Shown: piece by piece, positions 31,338-46,045 of the stretch
Layout: the number at the start of each line of letters is the position of its first letter
Position numbering within the stretch: position 1 is the stretch's first letter
Assembly (NCBI GenBank): GCA_002697535.1
Contig: NZWE01000021.1
Location: 1-46,045 of the forward strand
Direction: 5' to 3'
Source of the DNA: Actinomycetota bacterium
GTDB taxonomy: Bacteria > Margulisbacteria > Marinamargulisbacteria > GCA-2716485 > GCA-002719695
Length of the DNA: 46,045 nucleotides
The notes under the pieces: generated by a model
Told to the model about the DNA's origin: nothing
The model's input: the letters and a program-made list of their open reading frames with translations, nothing else
The model's database searches: none
Made by a program: the position numbers and the translations under genes

Positions 31338-32489
31338 TTATTCCGCCTTTTCTTTTTTTGTAGTTGCTGCTTTAGTTTTAGCCTTAGTTTCTGTCTTAGC
31401 CTTAGTTTTTGTCTTAGCCTTAGTTTCTGTCTTAGCCTTAGTTTCTGTCTTAGCCTTAGTGTCGGTCTTAGTCTTAGTATCGGTCTTAGCTTTAGTTTCG
31501 GTTTTAGCTTTGGTTTCAGTCTTAGCTTTGGTTTCAGTCTTAGCTTTAGTTTCAGTTTTAGCTTTGGTTTCAGTTTTAGCTTTAGTTTCAGTTTTAGCTT
31601 TAGTTTCAGTTTTAGCTTTAGTTTCAGTTTTAGCTTTGGTTTCAGTTTTAGCTTTAGTTTCAGTTTTAGCTTTGGTTTCAGTCTTAGTTTGTTTTTTTGA
31701 AGTCACTTCTTTATCTAATGATTTCGCAGAGACATCTTCTAAAGATGTGTCATCCTCTGCAGATTGATCAGGCAAGTCATCTTGTGCAATTCTTTCAGCT
31801 GTCCCAGATACAACAGCATCAGCCATGATAGAACAAACTAATTTAACAGCACGAATGGCATCATCGTTAGCAGGGATGGGATAATCAATTTCTTGAGGAT
31901 TAGCATTAGTATCAACAACTCCAACAATTGGAATATTTAATTTTTTTGCTTCTTGAATGGCTAATTGTTCTTTCTGTGTATCAATAATAAAAATAGCAGA
32001 AGGTAATTTAATCATAGATTTAATACCATCAAACATATTAGATAATTTGGTATAATTTTTTGTTTTTTTAGATTGTTCTTTTTTTGATAAAAGCTCTAAT
32101 TCTCCAGATTCTTTCATTTTTTCAAAATCTTTTAATTTATTGATACTTTGCCTAATAGTAGAGATATTAGTTAATGTACCACCTAACCAGCGGAAATTGA
32201 CGTAAGGCATTTCACTGCGTTCAGATTCTTCTTTTACTGCATCTTGAGCTTGTTTTTTAGTTCCAACAAATAGAATAATGCCATCATTTTTAACAATTTG
32301 TTTAACAAATTCATAAGCAACATTAATGAGTTGAATAGATTGTTGTAAATCAATAACATGAATTCCATTTCGAGAGGTAAAAATATACTTCTTCATTTTA
32401 GGGTTCCAGCGTTTAGTTTGATGGCCAAAATGAACACCACATTCTAGTAATTGTCTCATTGTCACGACTTCTTTAAGATCTTCTTCCAC
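31338..32489 (-). CDS. rpsB: Ribosomal protein S2 with long repeat tail
   Basis: Small-subunit protein S2. Residues 8-230 are an ordinary S2 ([29 protein letters not shown]..., [72 protein letters not shown]). After an acidic linker (about 232-262) it has an extension of some 120 residues, mainly the hexapeptide KTETKA repeated about 17 times with a few variants, ending in KKEKAE. S2 is normally about 230-260 aa. The GTG start at 32489 has an AGAGG site and fits the family N-terminus. Promoter and leader hairpin lie upstream. The tail is probably disordered, near charge-balanced but basic, on the ribosome surface. Confidence 0.95.
31378..31690 (-). repeat. Coding minisatellite of about 17 18-bp units in rpsB
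   Basis: An in-frame array of 18-bp units encoding KTETKA. Eleven consecutive units at the rpsB-core-proximal end (about 31490-31690) are nearly identical at DNA level, varying mostly at third positions; the rest (31378-31490) include [12 protein letters not shown] and KTKTKA variants. Near identity implies recent expansion by slippage or unequal exchange. The reverse frame is also open (VSVLAL repeats), which is a by-product. Confidence 0.93.
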
Positions 32490-32613: not shown

Positions 32614-33759
32614 ATGATAAATAAAATAATATTGATATCACTATATAAAAATGATTACGAGATTATTAAAGAGAATGTAACGTTAAACTGCCCTATCAAC
32701 TTTTATGATAATGCAAAAGAAGCAGTAGAAACACTAGAAGAGAATATAGACGATAGCATAATATTGCTATCAACATTAATTGAAGATATGTCATATGAAG
32801 ATGTTATTGAGCAGGTTGTGATAAAGTCAAAAAATTGTAAAGTTATTGTGTATTCATCATTTTCATCAATTGAAGAAGTAACCAAAGGGTTAGAAAAAGG
32901 GGCGTATGACTTTATTATTGGAGATGATGTATTAAGTAAAGTTGTTATGTCAGTAAATTCATTATTTCAAAAATCAGAGACATCTGCCTATAAAATTGAT
33001 AATGCTAAGATACAACATCTCATTAATTCCAGTTTGTTTGAGATGATAGATTATTATCAAGTTCAATCTAAATCTAGTGAACTAAATGAAACGATAGCGC
33101 AATATAATAAATGGTATGACAATAGCTTAAAAAAAATGGAAAAAAGTTCGTTATTAATTGTAGAAGATGAACATATATTTAGAAAATTGCTAGTGGATAT
33201 GGTTTCAACCTGTTATTCCCAAGTAACAGCCGTAGAAGGTGGAAAAGAAGCCGTAGAAAAATTAAAAGAAAAAAAATATGGTATAGCAATCGTTGATTTG
33301 TTTTTAAATGATATGGATGGGGTAGAGTTGATTCAGGTAATTAAATCTTATAATCCGCTAATACAAATTATTGTAGTAACAGCATTTGATTTAATAGATA
33401 CGGCATCGAATGTATTAAAAATTGGTGTAGCTGATTATTTACAAAAACCTATTATGAAAAAAGATTTATTAACCTCTATTGAAAAAGCAGAAATTGAAAA
33501 TAAAAAAGCAGTTATTCAGGAAAAAGCATTACAGGAGTTTTTTTGTAAGCAAATTAATTTTGAGCAAAAATGTGTGATATTAGAATCACTATTTAAATTT
33601 AAAAAGAAAAATAACAAACCATTTATAATGGAAGATGTATATCAAGTTTTTCCCAACTTAAATAATAATAATATTTACGAAAAGATTACATTGCCACCTA
33701 TTATAGATAAGGAAAACATCAAGCGATTTATATCATCATTTAAGTTGGATGAGAAATAG
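32614..33759 (+). CDS. Response regulator, degenerate plus intact receiver, no DNA-binding domain
   Basis: 381 aa. Residues 1-118 fold like a receiver (KIILISLYKND; SIILLSTLIEDMS; KVIVYSSFSS; KGAYDFI) but lack the acidic pair, the phosphoacceptor Asp (Ser at that place) and the Lys. Residues 178-295 are a complete receiver: LLIVEDE (Glu184, Asp185, Glu186), phosphoacceptor Asp228 in IAIVDLFLNDMDG, VVTAF and YLQKPI (Lys278). A helical linker (about 125-177) joins them. The last 85 residues are helical without a helix-turn-helix, GGDEF or other known output. Start ATG with AAAGGGA. Its 3' end overlaps the convergent histidine kinase gene by 20 bp, suggesting a functional pair by proximity only. 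Confidence 0.88.
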   Translation: MINKIILISLYKNDYEIIKENVTLNCPINFYDNAKEAVETLEENIDDSIILLSTLIEDMSYEDVIEQVVIKSKNCKVIVYSSFSSIEEVTKGLEKGAYDFIIGDDVLSKVVMSVNSLFQKSETSAYKIDNAKIQHLINSSLFEMIDYYQVQSKSSELNETIAQYNKWYDNSLKKMEKSSLLIVEDEHIFRKLLVDMVSTCYSQVTAVEGGKEAVEKLKEKKYGIAIVDLFLNDMDGVELIQVIKSYNPLIQIIVVTAFDLIDTASNVLKIGVADYLQKPIMKKDLLTSIEKAEIENKKAVIQEKALQEFFCKQINFEQKCVILESLFKFKKKNNKPFIMEDVYQVFPNLNNNNIYEKITLPPIIDKENIKRFISSFKLDEK

Positions 33760-35044
33760 GAAGAGTGATGTCAAAAAGGGTGTATTTTTGAACAGAAGAT
33801 TGCACCGATACACTTCCCCCGTGAGCATCAATCGTTTTTAATACCATAGGTAAGCCTAGTCCTGTTTTAGCAGAGTTAGATGTATAGAAAGGGTCAAAAA
33901 TTTTAGTAAGTGTATTATGAGGAATACCTTTTCCTGTATCTAAAAAGGATATTTTTATTTGAGATTTAGCATCCTCTAACGAAGAAGAGATGGTGATAGA
34001 TCCAGCTTGTTCAATAGCTTCGATGCTATTTAAGATAATATTTAAAAACACTTGGCTCATGCTATTAACATCAAGATTGAGTTTAGGAAGATTGGGATCT
34101 AACTTTTTAATCAGCGATATACGTCTTTTTTTAAATTCTGCCTGGCAAAGAGTATCCGCATCATCAATAAGTGTATTGATATCAATACACTCTTTAATAT
34201 GAGAGGTTGGTTTTCCATATTGAAGCATAGTGGAGGTGATAGATTTAAGGCGTAAAATACTAGATTTGGTGGTAGCGATGTATTCTGTCGATTTAATAGG
34301 ATCATGAAGGTTTTCTTCTAACAATTCAATACTAGATAAGATCATAGCCATAGGGTTCCCAATTTCATGTGCGATACCACGCGTAAGTGTAGCATAAGCA
34401 ACTTGCTGAGATGCTTTTTCAAGCATAGTTTTACGTTCTTTAGCACGATTAATAGCAATATTAAGTTTTTTTTCAGATAATAAATTATCAACTAAAAAAG
34501 AGTATAACGTAAAACCAATCATTGAGTAGCTAGTAAAAATAGCAAAATAATTTAATATGTTTTGAGTTAATGTAGGAATAAGAGTTGAAGGAAACAGTTG
34601 GTAGGAAGTAATTTCAAGAAGATAATGAGTTGTAAGAGGGATACAAAACGCTAAAATTTGAATTAAAACATTTGATTTTCGAAATAAGATAAAAGAAAAG
34701 CAAAATAAGGGAAATAATAATAGATGAGCTCCTGATTCTTTACCTAGTAAACAAGAATAAAATGAAAAAATAAGGGAATTAATAAAAATAAGATAAAAAC
34801 GTGAGAATAAAAATAGTTTTATTTTATGAAATAAAAAAACAATAAGGTAAGAGAGAGGAACAAATATCGTATAAAAAAAAGCAGAAGGTAAGTTTAAGAC
34901 ATAAAAAATAAAAAAATAAGGAATGCAACTTAAAAGATAAAAAACCGTAATTTGATTGGTTAAAACAATGACACGCTTTTTATTTGGAAGGATAGTATCA
35001 GGAACGCCAAAATTAAAAATAATATTAAAAAGTTGTTTAACCAT
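33740..35044 (-). CDS. Membrane sensor histidine kinase
   Basis: 434 aa. About six hydrophobic segments in residues 30-190 form a sensor without a large extracellular domain. A coiled linker (188-212) leads to HisKA with TRGIAHEIGNPMAMILSSIELL (phospho-His226) and HATPase_c with N box NIILNSIEAIEQ (Asn339), G1 FLDTGKGIP, F box FDPFYTS, G2 KTGLGLPM and the terminal DAHGGSVSV. All catalytic boxes are intact. Nearest regulator: the response regulator at 32614-33759, convergent and overlapping by 20 bp. The HATPase is similar in wording to the decayed one at the end of the 1383-aa protein. Signal sensed is unknown. Confidence 0.92.
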   Translation of the reverse strand: MVKQLFNIIFNFGVPDTILPNKKRVIVLTNQITVFYLLSCIPYFFIFYVLNLPSAFFYTIFVPLSYLIVFLFHKIKLFLFSRFYLIFINSLIFSFYSCLLGKESGAHLLLFPLFCFSFILFRKSNVLIQILAFCIPLTTHYLLEITSYQLFPSTLIPTLTQNILNYFAIFTSYSMIGFTLYSFLVDNLLSEKKLNIAINRAKERKTMLEKASQQVAYATLTRGIAHEIGNPMAMILSSIELLEENLHDPIKSTEYIATTKSSILRLKSITSTMLQYGKPTSHIKECIDINTLIDDADTLCQAEFKKRRISLIKKLDPNLPKLNLDVNSMSQVFLNIILNSIEAIEQAGSITISSSLEDAKSQIKISFLDTGKGIPHNTLTKIFDPFYTSNSAKTGLGLPMVLKTIDAHGGSVSVQSSVQKYTLFDITLPISHPT

Positions 35045-35098: not shown

Positions 35099-38056
35099 TT
35101 AAACGAGGGAGTTAAATAATTTTGTGTGTTTAGTAGGCGACCCATTTGATAATTTTGCTTTTGAATCATCCTGCTTTGGCAATGATTTTAGTGCAATACT
35201 TAATGGTTTTTCATTTTCTGTTGTTTGATTAGGGGGTATATCTGTTACAAAATGTTTCTTGAGATCATGTTTTAAGCGTTTTATATACATATCAAGAATC
35301 TTGGTTAAGTTATTTATAATTGAATGAATAACCTTATTTGGTTTTTGTGTATATAAACTGAAAAAATCTTGGGCAGTATAATGATCAATAAGTTTTTTTT
35401 CAAATTCACCAATGATATCACGAAAAACTTTTTCAATTTCTGGTAGATTCTTTATAATTTTTTTTAAAAAGTTAGGGTTTTTCTTAGTCTCAGTTGAGAA
35501 ATAAAAGAGAGGGTTACTTTTAATGTTATAAGTGATTTGACCCTCATAAGTGGCATTACCAAGAAATTGAGTCAAAGCCTCTTGGGGGCTAATCGGATTA
35601 TTATTTAGCTCTAAAAGATTACGAAGGAGCTGTTGAAGCCGTTCAGGGGTGCTAAGGCCAATTAAAGCAGTAGAAACTGGAACAAGAGTATACTCAACAT
35701 CAGTAATTTCATTAAGGCAATCAATATCATTTGCATATTTTGCCAAAAGTTGTGTATGGTCTATTTGTTCAAAATAGATATAGAGTTCTATTAATGAATT
35801 TAAAAGATTAGGGTCCCTTGCTACGATGTCAGTCAAGTGTGAATTATTACCATTAATTTGGTTATAAAATTCATCTCCTATATATATAAGTTCATTAAGT
35901 TTCTGAATAGATAAAAAGTTAGTAATAAAGTAGGGTAAGTTTAAAACATCTGTAACTGGCTGGCCTTGTAATAAATCTTTATTCTTTTCTAATAAGTACA
36001 AAAAATTTTTGGTAAAATTTTCTAATTTATTACTAGGTAAAGAATTGTGAGTCACAGAAAGTGGAGGGTATTTAAGGTGTATATTTATACTCAAGGGGGG
36101 AGCTAGCCTTGCTTTATATGATTCTACAATAGAATCAAGAGTATTTTTGAAAAAGTAACTTAAAAAACTAGCTTGAAGCATTGGTGTTGTGGCGTTAGAG
36201 TCAATAAAAGGGTGGTCTTTAACTTGCTGTGAGTCATAAACATGGCTCAATGTTAATTGTTGAATTTGTAGAACAGATAATGATTGGGTGGATTTTGTTG
36301 ATAATGCAAGTACATTAGATGTCAAAAGAAAGTTCATAAAACGATAGCTAGTATAAACAGTATCTTTATTGGCACCAAGATATTTAAAAAATTTTTGAAA
36401 AGGTGGTTTTGAAGATAATAAAAATTTAGCTAAGTCATAAGATTTTGTTGGGTCTTGTTCTGCTATAGTTAGCTGATTAAACTTATTTAAGTTCTTTAAA
36501 AAAAGAGTATACTCTCTTCGTAAAGATTTAAAATTATCAAGTTTTGTAATAAGATTATCAAGACGGCATCCACTTAAATAATCTATCATACAAAAGTTAA
36601 AATTATACTGAAACCAGGGAAAGTTTGATAAAGAAAATGAGAATTGAGGAGCTTGTTTACATAAAGAAGTAAAAAGTACATTAGAAACTATAGAATTATC
36701 AACGGTCTCATAAGGGATAGTTTGACGTGAGATAAGTGTAAAAATCTTTTCTTTTATATCATCAATAAAATTTTGAAACTCAGAGTCTTTTAAGGTATGT
36801 AGCATGAAAAAGAAACACATAAAAGCGGCATCTTTGGCATACTGTTGAGTAAGCTTATAGCCATGCTCTTTTAAGTCTTTAGGTAAACACCCATCAGCTG
36901 CATCATCAAGATAACAATTTAATATCAAGATGGAATGCCATATACGAGACACATGCTCTGGTACTTTATTTGCAGATGGAGGTAAGTATAAACCCCGATT
37001 TGGTTGTACATATTCAACAGTCTGCGTTCTTCTCTTATCCATAATGGGATACTTGATTTTGGATAAATTGGAAGAGTAATCACTAGGTTTGAAAGAGAAA
37101 GTAGCAACAGTAAAAAGAGGGATTTCTTTTAATGAATCATCCTGCTTTTTTTCTGATAATTTATTATAATAGACATTTAATTCTACGATTCTATCTTGTA
37201 GATTATTAATGCTGCATTTATTAATTTGAAATTTTAAAGCAGCTAAAATGAAGGGTATTGCCAATGATTTAAATTGTTTATAGGCTAATAAAGAAAATGA
37301 TAACCCCGCAATAAACAGATAAAAAATAATAGGGTTTATGGAAGAGAATTGTTCCCTGGAAATAGAGCAGTTTGATCTAATATGATTATTGTGAATAAGA
37401 TTCGAGTGTAATAATTTTTTTTTGAAATCATTTATAGTTGTCATTAAAATTTTTTCAGAATTAGCAGATGGTTTTAAGCAAAATTTAGTAGAACAATGAT
37501 TTTGATCATTAAAATTTTTTAAAATTCCTTCTAAAGATTCTTTTAATATTGCTTTCTCTATATATTCTTGATGTGGCGTTAGATTATTAACTAAACTAGA
37601 TGAAATGTTAGATGTAATTGATATTTCTTTTTTCTTATGAAGGGTAAACATTTTGTGTATGATGTTTGTAGTTTGGTGTTTAAACTGTTCTTTTATGGTG
37701 TCTGTATTCCAGTTATCTGTTAACTCATTGTCGATTAAATAATCGTACATTTTTTTGTATTCATCTTGAAATAGTAGGTGGTCTTGAAAAAGTTTGTTAG
37801 GGTCGTTCTGGAAATCTTGAAATTGATTAGCTGTTTCTTCCACAAGTTTTATATATTGATCGTCAAAATCCTTGTTTAAAGGATGTGGGAGGGTTCCCTG
37901 TTGCGCTTTTTTGAGTAATTTTGGAATTTGTAAAGCGGTAAATATCATTACAAAAATAACTGTAGCATTCTGTTGTTTTAATGACCTGTCTGAGTCATTA
38001 TTAATATATAATTTAGTGGGTTTTACTGCAGGCCTATATGGGGAGATTAAGTGCAT
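35099..38056 (-). CDS. Very large orphan protein (985 aa)
   Basis: 985 aa, no family recognised, no signal peptide. A hydrophobic stretch lies at about 30-46 (NATVIFVMIFTALQIPKLL), and a stronger pair at about 240-280 (IIFYLFIAGLSFSLLAYKQF; LAIPFILAALKF) could be a membrane hairpin. The rest is mainly helical and Asn/Leu/Lys/Phe-rich, with Cys spread through it and a Lys/Ser/Pro-rich C-terminal tail (from about 940: NEKPLSIALKSLPKQDDSKAK). No enzyme motif is evident. The overall plan (soluble N-terminus, hydrophobic hairpin, long helical body) matches the other giant protein at 42727-46045, with weak local similarity. It follows the 105-aa gene by 32 nt, so both probably use the promoter at 38451-38479. 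The ATG has no clear Shine-Dalgarno. Confidence 0.75.
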   Translation of the reverse strand: MHLISPYRPAVKPTKLYINNDSDRSLKQQNATVIFVMIFTALQIPKLLKKAQQGTLPHPLNKDFDDQYIKLVEETANQFQDFQNDPNKLFQDHLLFQDEYKKMYDYLIDNELTDNWNTDTIKEQFKHQTTNIIHKMFTLHKKKEISITSNISSSLVNNLTPHQEYIEKAILKESLEGILKNFNDQNHCSTKFCLKPSANSEKILMTTINDFKKKLLHSNLIHNNHIRSNCSISREQFSSINPIIFYLFIAGLSFSLLAYKQFKSLAIPFILAALKFQINKCSINNLQDRIVELNVYYNKLSEKKQDDSLKEIPLFTVATFSFKPSDYSSNLSKIKYPIMDKRRTQTVEYVQPNRGLYLPPSANKVPEHVSRIWHSILILNCYLDDAADGCLPKDLKEHGYKLTQQYAKDAAFMCFFFMLHTLKDSEFQNFIDDIKEKIFTLISRQTIPYETVDNSIVSNVLFTSLCKQAPQFSFSLSNFPWFQYNFNFCMIDYLSGCRLDNLITKLDNFKSLRREYTLFLKNLNKFNQLTIAEQDPTKSYDLAKFLLSSKPPFQKFFKYLGANKDTVYTSYRFMNFLLTSNVLALSTKSTQSLSVLQIQQLTLSHVYDSQQVKDHPFIDSNATTPMLQASFLSYFFKNTLDSIVESYKARLAPPLSINIHLKYPPLSVTHNSLPSNKLENFTKNFLYLLEKNKDLLQGQPVTDVLNLPYFITNFLSIQKLNELIYIGDEFYNQINGNNSHLTDIVARDPNLLNSLIELYIYFEQIDHTQLLAKYANDIDCLNEITDVEYTLVPVSTALIGLSTPERLQQLLRNLLELNNNPISPQEALTQFLGNATYEGQITYNIKSNPLFYFSTETKKNPNFLKKIIKNLPEIEKVFRDIIGEFEKKLIDHYTAQDFFSLYTQKPNKVIHSIINNLTKILDMYIKRLKHDLKKHFVTDIPPNQTTENEKPLSIALKSLPKQDDSKAKLSNGSPTKHTKLFNSLV

Positions 38057-38088: not shown

Positions 38089-38406
38089 TTAGTAAGTACT
38101 TTCCGAACTATCTGAACTAGCTGAATTAGCTCTCGGTTTACGATAACGTATCCCTGTATCTAGATTATAACTATCATCTAATATCTTTGAATTTTGTGGA
38201 ATCATATTTGGAGATGGGCCAGGAGATGTGCCTGGGGATGTGTCTGAGGATGTGTCTGAAGATATACCATCTATACGTGGAGCAAAAAAATTTTTAGTAT
38301 CTTCATTTTGCGCATGACCCACTAGTTTTTGACTCTCAGATGAGTTGGTGTGAGCGAATGAGGTACGTCTGGTCTGATCGAATGGGGGAAAGTAAGCTGA
38401 AAACAT
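38089..38406 (-). CDS. Small Ser/Asp/Pro-rich orphan protein
   Basis: 105 aa, hydrophilic and low in complexity, no signal peptide. The middle has SSDTSSDTSPGTSPGPSP, and the C-terminus is again Ser-rich (ANSASSDSSESTY). No known family; probably disordered, possibly phosphorylated or a secretion/chaperone partner of the large protein after it. Support for a real gene: AAAGGAAA 7 nt before the ATG, a strong promoter (TTGACA-17-TATCTT) upstream, and a 32-nt gap to the 985-aa gene. Confidence 0.65.
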   Translation of the reverse strand: MFSAYFPPFDQTRRTSFAHTNSSESQKLVGHAQNEDTKNFFAPRIDGISSDTSSDTSPGTSPGPSPNMIPQNSKILDDSYNLDTGIRYRKPRANSASSDSSESTY

Positions 38407-38518: not shown

Positions 38519-41500
38519 TTAAATTTTTATAGTACTTGATTTGTCAGATAGAGATGACAAAATATCATTGGAATTAGATTGAGTGTTTGATTTGCGTATT
38601 AAAGGAATGCTAATAGTTAAGTAAGTTGAATGATCGTTATCTGATGAAATATAGATGGTTCCTTTTAGCGCATCAATGATAGGGATAAGCATCGATAAGG
38701 TAACAGTATTCCTGGATGTTTCGTTATGTAAAAAGAGATCGATAAGGTCTTTGTCTAAGGTATTACTCGTATCTGTAAATGAAATGATGATAGAGTCTTC
38801 AGAATGTTGAGAACAAACAGAGCTAGAAATAAAAATAGATCCAGATTGGTTAATAGATTCAATACTATGAATAATAATGTTAAAAAAAATAAGAATCATA
38901 TTGCTAAAATCAAGTAAGCTATCAGAAATATCTGATAATTCAGTATGTATTTTAATAGACCGTTTTCTACATTCAGGTTGAATAATGGTAACCGCATAAT
39001 TTAATAGCGACGAAATATTGGCAGATGAAAATGAGTTAGGAGAAAATGAATCATTATTTAGTATAGATGATGCAATAATAGTAAGTTGGGCTTTAAGAGA
39101 ATTAAAATAATTAGAAGAATCTGTTGATTTATTAGGTGTAAGATCTGTAATCATATTTAACTCAGTTTCTTGAGATAGCTTATGAGATAAATCACTATCA
39201 GTAGAATTAAAGTTTTGAAAGTTAGTATTAAATGATAGAGACTTTGAAGTTGAATGATGAAGTAGGCTATTATTATGAATAATAAGTTCAAAAAGATGGA
39301 TGTAATTATAAAGATTTTCAAGCTGAGATTGCGATAACTGATCTTGTGATGTTTTATTTTCAAAATAAAGAATGCCAGAGACTGATTGAGCTGGAGTTAG
39401 TAAAGGGATCACAAGAATCGAATCAATATTATGGTCTAGAATATAGGAATCAGGTGAGCCTGATTGAGAAAGTTGAGATGAGGATTGGTAGAATAATTTT
39501 TGAGAATAAAAAACTTGATTGCAATGAGTTTGTATAAAGGGAGGTAAGGTTGCAATAGATGTATTATCTTTAGCAAGCGATACATCTTTAGATAGAAATG
39601 TGTAATTTAGTATTAAATCCTCATGGTCACTTTTAAAGAAATAACCAGAATCAAAATCAATATAGCGAAAAATAAATTGAAACATATAAGATAATTCAAT
39701 ATCGGTAATAGAGTGTACATTTTTTTTGTTTTTTAATAAAAAAACGATATTATCTTCTGAATCAGAAGCTAAAGGTTTTGTATCCTTGGAAAGATAGAAA
39801 TGATAATGTTTTGAGAGAGAGTCACGTTTGTAGCAGTAACCTAGTGTATCATAAGATTTAATGCATATATCAATATGTTTTTGTACGCCATCTTTATCAT
39901 GAAGGTCATGGTAAAAGATAGCTGCTATTTCATGGGCGATAAGATTTGCTAACGGTTGTTTATAATGGTCTGAAGATTCAATCGTTTCTAAGATTAAACG
40001 ATGGCTATTTTTATTGCTATGATAATAATTTTGAATAGATTTAAGGATGTTATAATATGGTTTATAGTGATGTAGATCTTGGGTGATCAAATGATTAAAA
40101 ATATCAATATGGCGAAAGAGTAATTGTAAAGAGGCTGGATCTTTGGTAGATGTAAGTTTGTAATCAAAAAATAATGAAAGGGAATAATAAAAACAAAATA
40201 ATGGATAAAAAATACCTAGTAAATAGTTGTTAAATTTATTTTCTAGATTTTTTCCTATATTAATAGCTGATTTATAATCCTGTTTGTAGAAGCAAATAAA
40301 CATAATAAGAAATTTCAAAATAGGTTCGGCAGATTCGTTAGATTCTAAAACAACTTTATTTTGGTTGATAAATGTATGACAATCAAAAGTCTGATTCTCA
40401 GCAAGGATAGTTAATAATTGTTTATGTAACGTTGTATGGCTAATAATAATAGAAGATGAAAGATGACATGTTTTTAAAAAAAAGAAAATATTTAAATCAT
40501 ACGATTGCTGAATTTGTTGAAGAGATACCCCATTTAGGAGTTGAAAGTTTTGGTGAAAATTAATACAAGCAAGCCAATAATGAGAACTGCTAGAAGACAG
40601 AGTTAGTTTATTATTTAAAAATTTTTTAATATCATAAGTACTTTTTTCTAAATTATACTTTAAGGGCGTATAAAAGAGCGTTTTAATAAAATCAGGGAAG
40701 GTATAAATATCCGTCCTATCATACTTGAAAGAGGTGTTATCAATGGTCGGGTTTTCTTGAAAAAGAATATCCAGCTTTTTAATATCACCTGATTTCATTT
40801 TTTTAACAGCATCTAATAAGTCAATAGAAATGATATTAATGTTAGCCTGGTTAATAATTCTTGCTTTAATAAAAACCATTAAATCAAGTAAGAATAAGGG
40901 GGCGTTTAGTACGAGTAGATTTAAGACTTGCGCTATGATTAATATCTCAGAAGAAGTTGTCGGTAATGATTTTGAAAAATGAAAGAATTTTTTTAATTTC
41001 CAAATAGGTAGTTTTAAAAATTCAATGCCAAATTTAAAATTAAGAAAAAATTTATTACTTGGAATAAAGCCTAGATTAATATTTAAATAAGCAAGAGATT
41101 GGGTTGCTTCTAACGTTAAATCATAATAATTAAATTGTTTTTGATGAAGCCATTTCATTTTAAATAAATGTAATAAAGCGCGTTCTTTATTATTAGTAGA
41201 GATCAAAAAGCAGTTTTGCCATTCTTTTTGAATATCAGAATGATTAGAATAAAGCTTACATAAGAGATGATGATAAGCGATATCAAAATGAAATAATTTT
41301 GAATGAATAAAATTGTTTTTAAAATAGTTTAAAAGTAAGAAGAAAAAGTCATGAGCAATATTATGTTGCTCTAAATGAATAGATGAATAGGCTTCCAAGA
41401 CTAATTGTGAGAAAAAATCTTTAGATATAGTTTTAGGAAACTGGTAATTATTGGAAGGATCAATAATAAAAGAAGTTGATACGTAAGAAATAGTTTTTTT

Positions 41501-42670
41501 TGATTGAATACTATAGGAGATATGATCATTATGAATTTGGGTTAATTGTTTTTTAGATAAGCCATCTAATATAATAGATATAATGCTAATACTGGCAAAT
41601 TGAAAATAATGATCACGAATAACACCAAGATTTGAAAATGAGTGTTCAGGTAAAATAAATTGAGCATTCAAAGCGTCATTTTTTATAGTCGAATAATCAT
41701 AATCGTAAAAACGACAAATTTCATATAAATTAAATGGAGAGTCTTCTAAGCAGGCCAATAACATACAGTGTTTGGTAGCCTCACTAAGACCATTAAAAAT
41801 TTCATGAATTAATAATTCTCTAGTAATAAAAGGGCGAGATGAAACAAAGTCAGATTCTAAAAAAGATAAATTATTAAGAAAAAAATTGATTAAAAAGATA
41901 GATCGAGACGATTTTTTGAGAATTAAAGAGGCTAGGGAAAGAGCATCTAAATGAGAAATTGAAGTAAACGATTTTAAAGTAACTAAAATATCATGATAGT
42001 TAATTGAGGGGAGTGATATATCTTTAGTAAGATAGTTGTTTAATTTAATGAGAGAAAAGAACTCATTAAGAGACGGATAGAGACTAAGATTATAGTTAGG
42101 GAATGTAAAGACGACAGTTAAGGATGGTTGAGAAAGAAGAAAAGAAGATAATAACATAACAACATGACGTTCTAATAAATGGCCATTTTCAATGATTAGA
42201 CAAATAGAATAAAATTCAGAAATACACTTTAAAATAACAGATAAATGATAATTAAAATTATGATGTTCATATTTGTAATCATCGTAGATAACGTTATAAC
42301 TAAGTTGGATTTTTTGTAAATTATCATTAATAAACAGTTTAAAATACTGAGTAGAATCACATATTGTACTTAATTTTTGTTTTAATAAAAGGTAGTCACG
42401 AGCAGATAAAGTGCGATTTTGCGTTAAGAGTTTATTAATAATATCAATATATGTTGTAATAATATTTGTTCTAGGTTTTGATGCAAAATTAATATAAAAA
42501 CAAAATAGATTTGATTTAGATTTTAAAGAATCAAAAAGGTTTGTATTATAATAATGAATATCGTCGTCTATTTCAGCTGATAACCAAAAGAAATTAAATT
42601 GTTTAATAGGTTTATCGATTAATTTAATAAGTTGAGAAAGTTTTTGAGAAATATTAATAAGGGAATTCAT
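38519..42670 (-). CDS. Decayed kinase-ATPase-TPR-GAF-histidine-kinase family protein
   Basis: 1383 aa, no membrane segment. It matches, by pattern, the large Ser/Thr kinase-AAA ATPase-TPR-GAF-histidine kinase proteins, minus the N-terminal kinase. About 1-400: AAA_16/STAND-like, with SICLIIENGHLLERHVVMLLSS in place of the Walker B LDDLQWAD and no Walker A; KHCMLLACLEDSPFNLYEI and FQFASISIISIILDGLSKKQLTQIHNDHI match the winged-helix segments of that family. About 400-950: TPR-like helices. About 960-1120: GAF-like, ending SILVIPLLTPAQSVSGILYFEN. About 1200-1365: HATPase-like, NIIIHSIESINQSGSIFISSS, close to NIILNSIEAIEQAGSITISSS of the intact kinase at 33740-35044. But Asn is His1268, G1 is DTSNTL and G2 is TVTLSM, so ATP binding is unlikely. 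The long intact frame argues for a selected pseudoenzyme rather than a pseudogene. Confidence 0.82.
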   Translation of the reverse strand: MNSLINISQKLSQLIKLIDKPIKQFNFFWLSAEIDDDIHYYNTNLFDSLKSKSNLFCFYINFASKPRTNIITTYIDIINKLLTQNRTLSARDYLLLKQKLSTICDSTQYFKLFINDNLQKIQLSYNVIYDDYKYEHHNFNYHLSVILKCISEFYSICLIIENGHLLERHVVMLLSSFLLSQPSLTVVFTFPNYNLSLYPSLNEFFSLIKLNNYLTKDISLPSINYHDILVTLKSFTSISHLDALSLASLILKKSSRSIFLINFFLNNLSFLESDFVSSRPFITRELLIHEIFNGLSEATKHCMLLACLEDSPFNLYEICRFYDYDYSTIKNDALNAQFILPEHSFSNLGVIRDHYFQFASISIISIILDGLSKKQLTQIHNDHISYSIQSKKTISYVSTSFIIDPSNNYQFPKTISKDFFSQLVLEAYSSIHLEQHNIAHDFFFLLLNYFKNNFIHSKLFHFDIAYHHLLCKLYSNHSDIQKEWQNCFLISTNNKERALLHLFKMKWLHQKQFNYYDLTLEATQSLAYLNINLGFIPSNKFFLNFKFGIEFLKLPIWKLKKFFHFSKSLPTTSSEILIIAQVLNLLVLNAPLFLLDLMVFIKARIINQANINIISIDLLDAVKKMKSGDIKKLDILFQENPTIDNTSFKYDRTDIYTFPDFIKTLFYTPLKYNLEKSTYDIKKFLNNKLTLSSSSSHYWLACINFHQNFQLLNGVSLQQIQQSYDLNIFFFLKTCHLSSSIIISHTTLHKQLLTILAENQTFDCHTFINQNKVVLESNESAEPILKFLIMFICFYKQDYKSAINIGKNLENKFNNYLLGIFYPLFCFYYSLSLFFDYKLTSTKDPASLQLLFRHIDIFNHLITQDLHHYKPYYNILKSIQNYYHSNKNSHRLILETIESSDHYKQPLANLIAHEIAAIFYHDLHDKDGVQKHIDICIKSYDTLGYCYKRDSLSKHYHFYLSKDTKPLASDSEDNIVFLLKNKKNVHSITDIELSYMFQFIFRYIDFDSGYFFKSDHEDLILNYTFLSKDVSLAKDNTSIATLPPFIQTHCNQVFYSQKLFYQSSSQLSQSGSPDSYILDHNIDSILVIPLLTPAQSVSGILYFENKTSQDQLSQSQLENLYNYIHLFELIIHNNSLLHHSTSKSLSFNTNFQNFNSTDSDLSHKLSQETELNMITDLTPNKSTDSSNYFNSLKAQLTIIASSILNNDSFSPNSFSSANISSLLNYAVTIIQPECRKRSIKIHTELSDISDSLLDFSNMILIFFNIIIHSIESINQSGSIFISSSVCSQHSEDSIIISFTDTSNTLDKDLIDLFLHNETSRNTVTLSMLIPIIDALKGTIYISSDNDHSTYLTISIPLIRKSNTQSNSNDILSSLSDKSSTIKI

Positions 42671-42726: not shown

Positions 42727-45700
42727 TTAGATATCATTTTTAATGTCCGGTTTTATATTATCAAGAGAGGGATAAGATAAAAGTATATTCGCAGCTCTCC
42801 TTTGTTTTGGATCATTTTCCGCAGAAAAAGGGCTTCTTGGATGAGCTAAAACCCAAAAGATTATTTTTTCCCAAGATTTGGGTGGGGCTTGTGAGCAAGA
42901 GTTGCTTGTAGTAGGGGAGGGGTGCTGAGTATGATACTCTTTTAACGAATAGAATTTTTTAGGGGGTTCATTTGATTGAGATATATATTTATCGGGTGTG
43001 CTAAATGGGTTTTGAATTAAAAACTGATAAAGAAGTCCCAGTCTATTTTTTATGGTATATTTAACAGGAGAAATATGAAAATTGAAACGAATTAACTGCC
43101 AAATATAAAACGAAGTTTCAATAGCCTGAGTGGCAACAGCGCATGTTCTAGAAAAGCCATCTATCTGTGAGTTAGTAGGTTTAAAGCTGGAATTACCTTG
43201 TAAGCGAGCTAATCTTATATAATTTTTTTCGGTATTATCATGTTGGTTTCTGTTGTAGTTTACTGTGTTTTCTTTTATTTCTAAATATTCTTCGTCTGTA
43301 GTTTGAAATTCTTTAGACAGAGCAGCAAATTGCTGGTTACGTTTCTGATTACTGCATATTTCTCCTATTTTTTCTTTCCACCAAGCACATGTTAGAAGGA
43401 GTGGCTCACGTGATAATCTATGAACACCAACAGACGCAATCGTCGTTTCATTAAAGCCTAGTTTGTATTGAGGCTCCCATTTTTTCAACCCAAAGATGGA
43501 AGCGAAAAAATTATAAGGTATTTGCCGTAGATTTTTATCATTTATTTTAGCAACCGGGCAAGGAAATTTATTAAAAGAAATTGAAGTCATGAGCTGTTGG
43601 TTCATAGTAAATAAACTAGCCATCAAGGTTAAAAAATATGTAGATTCCTGGTTAAACCAATCCCAATCATAAATATCTCGATGATCACGATCTTGATAAT
43701 CACGTGGTTTTTCTAGATACTGAACAAGATTTTCCAGCATGGTTTTAGGTTTTTCAAGATCAGCGTTTTTTATATCATTAGGAAACATACGATCGAACTC
43801 TTTAAATGTGTCTCCATCAGTTGATAAATATTGGTTTTTGATTTTTTGAATTTCACCGTAATGCTTTTCAATATTCTTACTTAGTATCTTTTTGAAATAG
43901 TTTAGTAATTCTGGGAGTTCATCTAAAAGCTCTTTGTACTTAAATAATCGTATATCATCGTCAATAATTTTTTTTAGCTTTTTAATAAGACTGAAAATTT
44001 CACGGTGGTTTCCGTTTTGAACAGTGTCTAAGTAAATTTTTATATCTTTTGGTTTTACAACAAAGTTTATGATTTCGGTAAGCTTGTCTTTTTCAAATAG
44101 AGGGTATGTTTCTTGTAATTCGTCAAGATACTGTGCAAATGTATAATACTCTTTAAATGTTGCTTCATCGATAATAGTTTTATCCTTATCCTTGTAAAGT
44201 ATGTTATAATTATTCTTGGTTTTGTGTATTAGATCTTTAATAAGACTAAAAATTTCTTCGGGGTTTTCGTTTTTAGCGGTATCTAACCATTCCTTATATA
44301 TTGTTTTCTCTCTTCCTGTGGTTGTAACAAAGTCTATAACGTCTATGGTGTGGGTAAGAGTGTCTTGTTTATTTAGCGTGGATTTTAACGAGCTTCTTAA
44401 GTTGTTAGATAGAGTTTCAATTGCGCTTGGGAAGCCAGATTTAGAGGTTAAAGAACTTAGAATGTTTTTGATATAGTCATTAATTTCATTGTTTTTAAAG
44501 GGAATGTTAGAGTCTAGTCTATCAAGAATTTTTTCACATGATTGCAGTAAGGTTTCTTCCATACAGGAATCTTTAAGGTCTAGTTTTAACTTGAGTTGAT
44601 TAATTGTTTGTTTATCATCAAGACGGAATTGAGTAAACGTAGCACTGTCTTTTTCAATTTTATCCTTATGTTTAAAAATTAAGAAGACCATATTAAAGCA
44701 GACTCTAGACAAGCAATAACGTGCATCGTTAGCAGAATCAGCCCATGAAAATTCTGCAGCAATTTGTCTTGGAATCAGGATATCAGTATGCTGTTTTAAG
44801 CGCCAAAATATATTATAAGGACGATTAGGGTTTTTAGTATTAAGAACATCTATAAGGTTACGGTAAGTATCGGTTTTGCTATCAAAGAGCGTATTTATTT
44901 TGCTTAAAAAGTTTTTATCTAACTTTTTAAGGTTATCAACACAACTGTTCCAATATTCATCTTTTTTCAATTTATCTGACATATTATAACGATCTTTAAT
45001 TTTCTTAATCATTTTTTCAATAGGATGCTCAAGGTTAGGCAGTTCAATCTTAAGGCCTAAATAAGGAAGCAAGAGATAAGGAATAAAATAAGAAGAAAAC
45101 TTCTTTAAAGATAGGTTTAAGCTAGAATCTACACTTGAGTTGTTATTAAGATAATTTATAGTCTCCTTAATTTTGTCATTAAAAACCTTAGGATTATCTT
45201 TAAAGTTTGTATTAAAATTTTTAAAACCATCTTTCATTGCATCTTTTTCTTTTGCACCTCCTCTACCTAAAATATTTAACAGAAAGATTGGAGCTCTAGT
45301 TATATGTGTGTGTTTTTTTTTATATGTTGGTTTTGAAGGATGAAGAAGATATCTTTCATGAAGGAATGCTAAAGCAAAGGAAAATAAAGGGGGAAGAAAT
45401 CTTTTAATCGTAGGATTATCTAAGGAAAAAAAAGAATTTTCAGGAGAAGTAGTTGTATTAGTGTTAAGAAAATAAGAATTCATACTATATAGGAGGCATA
45501 GATAGGATGTCAAATACAGAGCAAAAGATAGAACTTGATTGCCAACAGAGATAGATGGATAAATTGAAATGTTAATTTTATCCTCAGTGTTATTCCCATC
45601 GAAAATTTCGTTAAAAAACTTTAAAATTGTTTGAAACTGTTCAGAGTTTTTCTTCGCTTCACTAGATTTATTAAACAGACTACTTGTTTCAGAAGCAATA

Positions 45701-46045
45701 GATCCAAAATGATAGTATAGTAAATTTTCACGAAAATGAGTTATATCTAAATAAAAATGATGAACAAAGCTAGCATAAAAAATAAATTTGTCATTATCAT
45801 TTTTCATTTCATTTTTAAGAGATTCGTTTTCGTTATTATCGATCCAAAATTTTGCTACTTCATAAGAGTTTTTAAGAGAAGCAAAAAAGGTCTCTTTTTT
45901 ATAAGGTTTGTCAAAAATTTTTTTATTTGTTATGTGGAGCACTTTAACGACAAAAAGGTTTAAAATCTTAGTTTCAATAGTATCAATATCTTCAGGTTTA
46001 AGAAGGCTATTTAACTTAGAAATATGGTGATTATAACATGCAATT
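42727..46045 (-). CDS. Very large orphan protein, start outside window
   Basis: At least 1105 aa. The GTG at 45942 has no ribosome site, and the same frame stays open for 34 more codons to the window edge with no start codon, so the true start is beyond 46045. No family recognised. Hydrophobic segments: VLSFALYLTSYLCLLYSMNSYF (about residues 133-154 counted from that GTG) and RFLPPLFSFALAFLHERYLL (about 179-198). A long helical, Lys/Asn/Asp-rich body follows. Two adjacent copies of a unit with LDT..N.N..EIFSLIK...LDEL (about 43875-44370) show internal duplication. The C-terminal part contains a Trp/Cys-bearing region (CAWWKEKIGEICS) and a final PKSWEKIIFWVLAHPRSPF. Layout resembles the 985-aa protein. 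It lies 56 nt upstream of the 1383-aa gene, probably in the same operon. Confidence 0.78.
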   Translation of the reverse strand, partial: IACYNHHISKLNSLLKPEDIDTIETKILNLFVVKVLHITNKKIFDKPYKKETFFASLKNSYEVAKFWIDNNENESLKNEMKNDNDKFIFYASFVHHFYLDITHFRENLLYYHFGSIASETSSLFNKSSEAKKNSEQFQTILKFFNEIFDGNNTEDKINISIYPSISVGNQVLSFALYLTSYLCLLYSMNSYFLNTNTTTSPENSFFSLDNPTIKRFLPPLFSFALAFLHERYLLHPSKPTYKKKHTHITRAPIFLLNILGRGGAKEKDAMKDGFKNFNTNFKDNPKVFNDKIKETINYLNNNSSVDSSLNLSLKKFSSYFIPYLLLPYLGLKIELPNLEHPIEKMIKKIKDRYNMSDKLKKDEYWNSCVDNLKKLDKNFLSKINTLFDSKTDTYRNLIDVLNTKNPNRPYNIFWRLKQHTDILIPRQIAAEFSWADSANDARYCLSRVCFNMVFLIFKHKDKIEKDSATFTQFRLDDKQTINQLKLKLDLKDSCMEETLLQSCEKILDRLDSNIPFKNNEINDYIKNILSSLTSKSGFPSAIETLSNNLRSSLKSTLNKQDTLTHTIDVIDFVTTTGREKTIYKEWLDTAKNENPEEIFSLIKDLIHKTKNNYNILYKDKDKTIIDEATFKEYYTFAQYLDELQETYPLFEKDKLTEIINFVVKPKDIKIYLDTVQNGNHREIFSLIKKLKKIIDDDIRLFKYKELLDELPELLNYFKKILSKNIEKHYGEIQKIKNQYLSTDGDTFKEFDRMFPNDIKNADLEKPKTMLENLVQYLEKPRDYQDRDHRDIYDWDWFNQESTYFLTLMASLFTMNQQLMTSISFNKFPCPVAKINDKNLRQIPYNFFASIFGLKKWEPQYKLGFNETTIASVGVHRLSREPLLLTCAWWKEKIGEICSNQKRNQQFAALSKEFQTTDEEYLEIKENTVNYNRNQHDNTEKNYIRLARLQGNSSFKPTNSQIDGFSRTCAVATQAIETSFYIWQLIRFNFHISPVKYTIKNRLGLLYQFLIQNPFSTPDKYISQSNEPPKKFYSLKEYHTQHPSPTTSNSCSQAPPKSWEKIIFWVLAHPRSPFSAENDPKQRRAANILLSYPSLDNIKPDIKNDI
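43875..44370 (-). repeat. Internal protein duplication in the giant orphan protein
   Basis: Unit 1 (about 44090-44370) contains IYKEWLDTAKNENPEEIFSL and YLDELQETYPLF; unit 2 (about 43875-44090) contains IKIYLDTVQNGNHREIFSLI and LLDELPELLNYF. Similarity is evident in protein with partial DNA resemblance. Unit 2 is shorter by about 20 residues between the two conserved blocks. Confidence 0.65.

Follow-up and report, generated by a model that had tools for sequence, protein, structure and literature searches.

A conserved giant pseudo-sensor without catalytic motifs in a genus of Marinamargulisbacteria

Introduction

Is a giant sensor gene whose catalytic motifs have all disappeared a broken gene, or does it encode a regulator that works without catalysis? 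The question is raised by a reading frame in a 46,045-nucleotide stretch of DNA (contig NZWE01000021.1 of assembly GCA_002697535.1; hereafter the window). From the letters alone, the frame at 38519-42670 of the reverse strand had been described as a 1383-aa protein with the layout of the Ser/Thr kinase-ATPase-TPR-GAF-histidine kinase family (hereafter the pseudo-sensor), retained beside a live kinase and a response regulator; a role as scaffold, decoy or allosteric regulator was suggested for it. We therefore compared it with an orthologue and with live relatives, that is, members of the family in which ATPase or histidine kinase motifs are intact.

Results

The coordinates (38519..42670, reverse strand) and the length of the pseudo-sensor were exact: the frame starts with ATG, 1383 codons are open, and the stop-to-stop frame adds only 11 codons upstream, which leaves the N-terminus without a Ser/Thr kinase-like domain. 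With Pfam, only HATPase_c was matched, below the threshold (E 0.032). Among the 74 genomes of the phylum that were searched, the full-length protein was found only in the genome of the window and in G002, of the same genus. The G002 orthologue (G002:C4:8701-12813; 1370 aa, approximately 51-52% identity over the full length) has no stops, contains some undetermined bases, and is likewise without catalytic boxes. In the genome of the window (76% complete), the sole further match to the pseudo-sensor was the kinase core of HK434, a live histidine kinase (see below), and a scan of the named genomes with the pseudo-sensor protein alone gave no relative; a defence-system library gave no match. As for the third member of the genus, G001, no pseudo-sensor was seen in its assembly, which resembled a loss; since this assembly also lacks tgt (the neighbour of the pseudo-sensor in G002) and probably the adjoining region, the gene may simply be missing from it. 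The space that separates its 1267-aa gene from its 918-aa gene showed no remnant.

Live relatives were found elsewhere in the order and class; where complete, their open frames have 1709-1915 codons, and their layout is kinase-like domain, P-loop ATPase, TPR, GAF and histidine kinase; Pkinase, AAA_16, GAF, HisKA and HATPase_c were all above the Pfam cut-off in that of G006. Partial copies with intact P-loops were found in G004 and G018, and a contig-edge C-terminal part (642 aa) in which the H, N, G1 and G2 boxes are all intact was found in G003, which belongs to the same family and another genus. Profiles of the two pseudo-sensors and of eight live relatives were aligned with hhalign, and residues 69-1359 were collinear with positions 368-1737 of the live relatives (probability 99.94%, 1263 columns), which bears out the proposed family. 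When the parts were aligned separately, the repeat and GAF region matched in order (probability 99.5%, E 3e-23), as did the kinase core (97.8%, E 1e-12), and the N-terminal 420 residues alone gave 56.6% (E 1e-4). Thus, collinearity weighs more in the ATPase assignment than the score of that part. The layout so obtained, all on the reverse strand, is a STAND/AAA-type ATPase remnant (residues 69-420; 41411..42466), a helical, TPR-like repeat region (residues 421-960; 39791..41410), a GAF-derived domain (residues 961-1140; 39251..39790; in the G002 copy GAF was matched by Pfam with E 0.003, below the cut-off), a linker with a DHp remnant (residues 1141-1215; 39026..39250), and a HATPase (Bergerat) fold without its boxes (residues 1216-1358; 38597..39025).

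The best match beyond the genus was a live sensor (residues 627-1357, E 8e-23), and residues 1216-1357 were best matched in sequence and fold by ZraS (PDB 9jfj, E 3.6e-8). Structure models, built without the G002 sequences, had low confidence values (pLDDT 41 and 57); that of residues 1-420, made from a single sequence (pLDDT 41), was too poor for a structure search. With the C-terminal model, the top Foldseek matches were histidine kinases and kinase-related domains, which is weak support since the live kinases in the alignment help that model. By comparison with the live relatives, the fold-forming segments have persisted as had been proposed: ex-ATPase, repeats, GAF and HATPase.

A search of the whole pseudo-sensor for the P-loop, H-box, N-box, G1 and G2 patterns gave no match, and the alignment to the live relatives located what stands in their place. 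The end of the Walker B strand reads IIENGHLLERH (residues 159-169; 42164..42196) as against FIDDIQW.D in the live relatives. In the N-box (residues 1264-1268; 38867..38881; N...H, in G002 N...Q), the first Asn is kept and the second is replaced by His1268 (Gln in G002). G1 (residues 1300-1305; 38756..38773) reads DTSNTL, with the Asp kept and both glycines gone, G2 (residues 1322-1327; 38690..38707) reads TVTLSM, and the ATP lid is shorter than in the live relatives. The sequence-only reading had given the same box states and had noted the loss of the N-terminal kinase, of Walker A and of a proper Walker B, on all of which motif search and alignment agree. It had also seen no convincing phospho-acceptor His motif, and this point can be refined: the H-box is not mutated, and the DHp stretch in which it sits is deleted from both orthologues. 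With the G1 Asp and the first N-box Asn still in place, the pseudo-sensor may retain some nucleotide binding.

At about the spacing of the P-loop stands SAEIDDDI (residues 31-38; 42557..42580), an assignment by spacing only (47 versus 49 residues to the next matching helix); of this stretch, G002 keeps DDDIHYYN, identical in both orthologues. In the local profile alignment of the stretch, the best match ran from residue 76 onward, with 12 of 300 shuffles doing as well (not significant), and the hydrophobicity register was uninformative. The spacing thus favours replacement of the P-loop by SAEIDDDI instead of its deletion, and the alignment statistics lend this no support.

Selection was evaluated with a codon model on the window and G002, so that all of the following comparisons rest on two orthologues only. 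In the pseudo-sensor dS was saturated, and in the neighbouring genes it was at least 2.4 and mostly saturated. Omega = 1 was rejected for the gene taken as one unit (2dlnL 644) and in all of its eight segments (2dlnL from 10.9 to 182), that of the dead kinase core included (2dlnL 69.6). At the amino-acid level, the orthologues are 52% identical, double the 26% of the neighbouring 985-aa protein. The claimed retention is therefore one under purifying selection. A decaying gene, open by chance or after a recent loss, would account for the missing boxes and for the low identity of the HATPase part (43%) and of the extreme C-terminus (25%); it is highly improbable, as 1370-1383 codons are open in both species despite synonymous saturation and omega = 1 is rejected everywhere. 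Orthologues with intact boxes had been named in advance as the sign of a recent local decay. Intact versions do occur, from the next genus outward, and the orthologue of the same genus is dead; the loss is thus old and has been kept. Conserved, under purifying selection and devoid of catalytic motifs, the pseudo-sensor is, as far as its sequence tells, a maintained pseudoenzyme. Given that a sister species has kept this protein, dead as it is, under strong selection, the pseudo-sensor probably works as a non-catalytic regulator and is not the product of a broken gene.

The most conserved third of the protein is residues 1-420 (63% identity between the orthologues), and the 60-residue interval with the highest conservation, residues 121-180 (83%), spans the former Walker B. 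This peak argues for a reused surface, and the surroundings of the former Walker B, as the most constrained surface, would be the best candidate for a contact or ligand site. The same peak, together with the invariant DDDIHYYN, could mean that the protein is no passive scaffold and that its altered ATPase site serves a new ligand or a new activity; we consider this unlikely, as no known catalytic motif was seen and the conservation fits a binding surface equally well.

The order of the losses was approached with eight live relatives that have the kinase-like domain (L033, L042, L068, L069, L071, L070, L067 and L072). Their HRD catalytic loop reads HGN, HLS, HLS, HCG, HCG, HKE, HQH and HSN, and since the catalytic Asp is missing in all eight, this domain looks like a conserved pseudokinase already in live members of the class. 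Catalysis was thus apparently lost stepwise, and the total loss in the genus would be the last step of the series (n = 8).

In the window, the pseudo-sensor belongs to an operon-like run on the reverse strand, consisting of a 1275-aa protein (42727..46045; C-terminal part, the start lying beyond the window), the pseudo-sensor, a 105-aa ORF (38089..38406), a fast-evolving 985-aa protein (35099..38056) and HK434 (33740..35044), separated by 56, 112, 32 and 54 nt; the 1275- and 985-aa proteins belong to no known family. The proximity of a live kinase and a response regulator, claimed previously, was confirmed above the Pfam cut-offs. HK434 is a 7TM histidine kinase (HisKA E 1e-9, HATPase_c E 2e-19) whose N-terminal half is hydrophobic, and the response regulator (32614..33759, forward strand; Response_reg E 9.5e-29) is convergent with it, with an overlap of 20 nt. 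Note that the G002 contigs break between the pseudo-sensor and HK434, and the run is that seen in the window. Synteny was also sought through the large upstream protein, and the candidate was rejected (G006 1457-aa versus window 1275-aa protein, no similarity at E 0.01).

Regulators homologous to that of the window have live sensors as neighbours in G011 and G015 and histidine kinases in G012, where two complete histidine kinases in tandem are followed by the related response regulator (L073 3757-8040); this tandem may be a counterpart of the pair of one dead and one live protein in the window. In the window's own response regulator, residues 181-289 form a clear receiver, preceded by one that looks degenerate, and a C-terminal segment (MED.Y..FP.L) is common to relatives in the class. 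Further observations concern two other genes. Ribosomal protein S2 (31338-32489 of the window, reverse strand) has a C-terminal tail rich in Lys, Thr, Glu and Ala, encoded by an 18-bp unit that is repeated in tandem approximately 17 times (31374-31687); its orthologues have other low-complexity tails, and an antisense 199-aa ORF over the tail is probably spurious. A kinase-like ORF with some undetermined bases (L036 19183-19998, reverse strand; HNDFKLSN, DFG) lies approximately 16 kb upstream of a pseudo-sensor on the same contig.

In the tree, the HATPase core of the pseudo-sensor grouped with that of HK434 (support 93/85, under the threshold of the program), and neither placement of the core was rejected by AU tests (grouping with the live sensors, p-AU 0.126). 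Such a grouping would fit a dead partner of HK434, either as a heterodimer through kinase-core helices, as ChrS pseudokinase forms with HrrS (PMC9491836), or as a block of the kind that RetS imposes on GacS (PMC4866733). We regard this as improbable, the DHp being truncated and the alternative placement remaining unrejected. Equally, the response regulator of the cluster could be read or sequestered through the DHp/CA module, for which DivL, without kinase or phosphatase activity, is a precedent (PMC4211667). This too seems improbable, because both orthologues have lost the His-bearing DHp stretch, which makes up half of the surface normally used for docking, and the complete DHp domain needed for docking of the DivL type is thus absent. 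The truncation makes both readings less likely and favours contacts made through the ex-ATPase domain, the repeats or the GAF domain.

Discussion

Taken together, these data lead us to regard the pseudo-sensor, with a probability of approximately 0.6, as a genus-restricted maintained pseudoenzyme that would act without catalysis, as a scaffold or an allosteric subunit, the most likely partner being HK434; role and partner are inferred. An ancestor of the genus had a giant sensor with kinase-like, STAND/AAA ATPase, TPR, GAF and histidine kinase parts. As the comparison with the live relatives shows, it then dropped the kinase-like domain, the nucleotide-binding loop and the active-site boxes of the histidine kinase, with the ex-ATPase domain, the helical repeats, the GAF domain and the HATPase fold retained, and selection has preserved the protein ever since. 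A signal would be received via the GAF, repeat or ex-ATPase modules and passed on by binding, without catalysis, the likeliest target being HK434 or the response regulator of the cluster. More tentatively, there may have been a division of labour in which the kinase core of the giant was copied to HK434, a small membrane kinase, and the giant, its catalysis then lost, became the dedicated sensory or regulatory subunit of HK434; if so, what had been a sensor in one piece is now divided between a dead integrator and a live kinase.

Among known systems, the general architecture recalls dual kinases such as HstK of Anabaena (Ser/Thr kinase-GAF-histidine kinase; discussed in PMC1262709), with which the pseudo-sensor shares the order of ATPase, repeat, GAF and histidine kinase parts via its collinear relatives in the class. 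What sets the pseudo-sensor apart is that the kinase domain, the P-loop, the phospho-acceptor and the ATP-binding boxes are all missing. Fungal group X hybrid histidine kinases have a Ser/Thr kinase-related domain, GAF and a histidine kinase whose active core is kept, and carry a receiver. They are named here as a related architecture by description only (PMC4965123). ZraS differs in that it binds nucleotide (solved with ADP). Like the pseudo-sensor, DivL has a histidine kinase fold that serves regulation without kinase or phosphatase activity (PMC4211667); it differs in its regulator-docking DHp and has no STAND or TPR part. RetS and the ChrS variant, the latter a laboratory-evolved mutant, resemble the pseudo-sensor in altering the output of another kinase without acting there as productive kinases of their own. 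To our knowledge, neither ChrS nor RetS has lost the His-bearing DHp stretch, and pseudo-histidine kinases are few. Those cited here lost one catalytic function, whereas in the pseudo-sensor the kinase domain and the motifs of both the ATPase and the histidine kinase are gone, and the protein is still selected. Because live relatives are found in the next genus and an intermediate state is represented by the kinase-like domain without its catalytic Asp, the order of losses can be traced and the use of such a dead sensor becomes testable.
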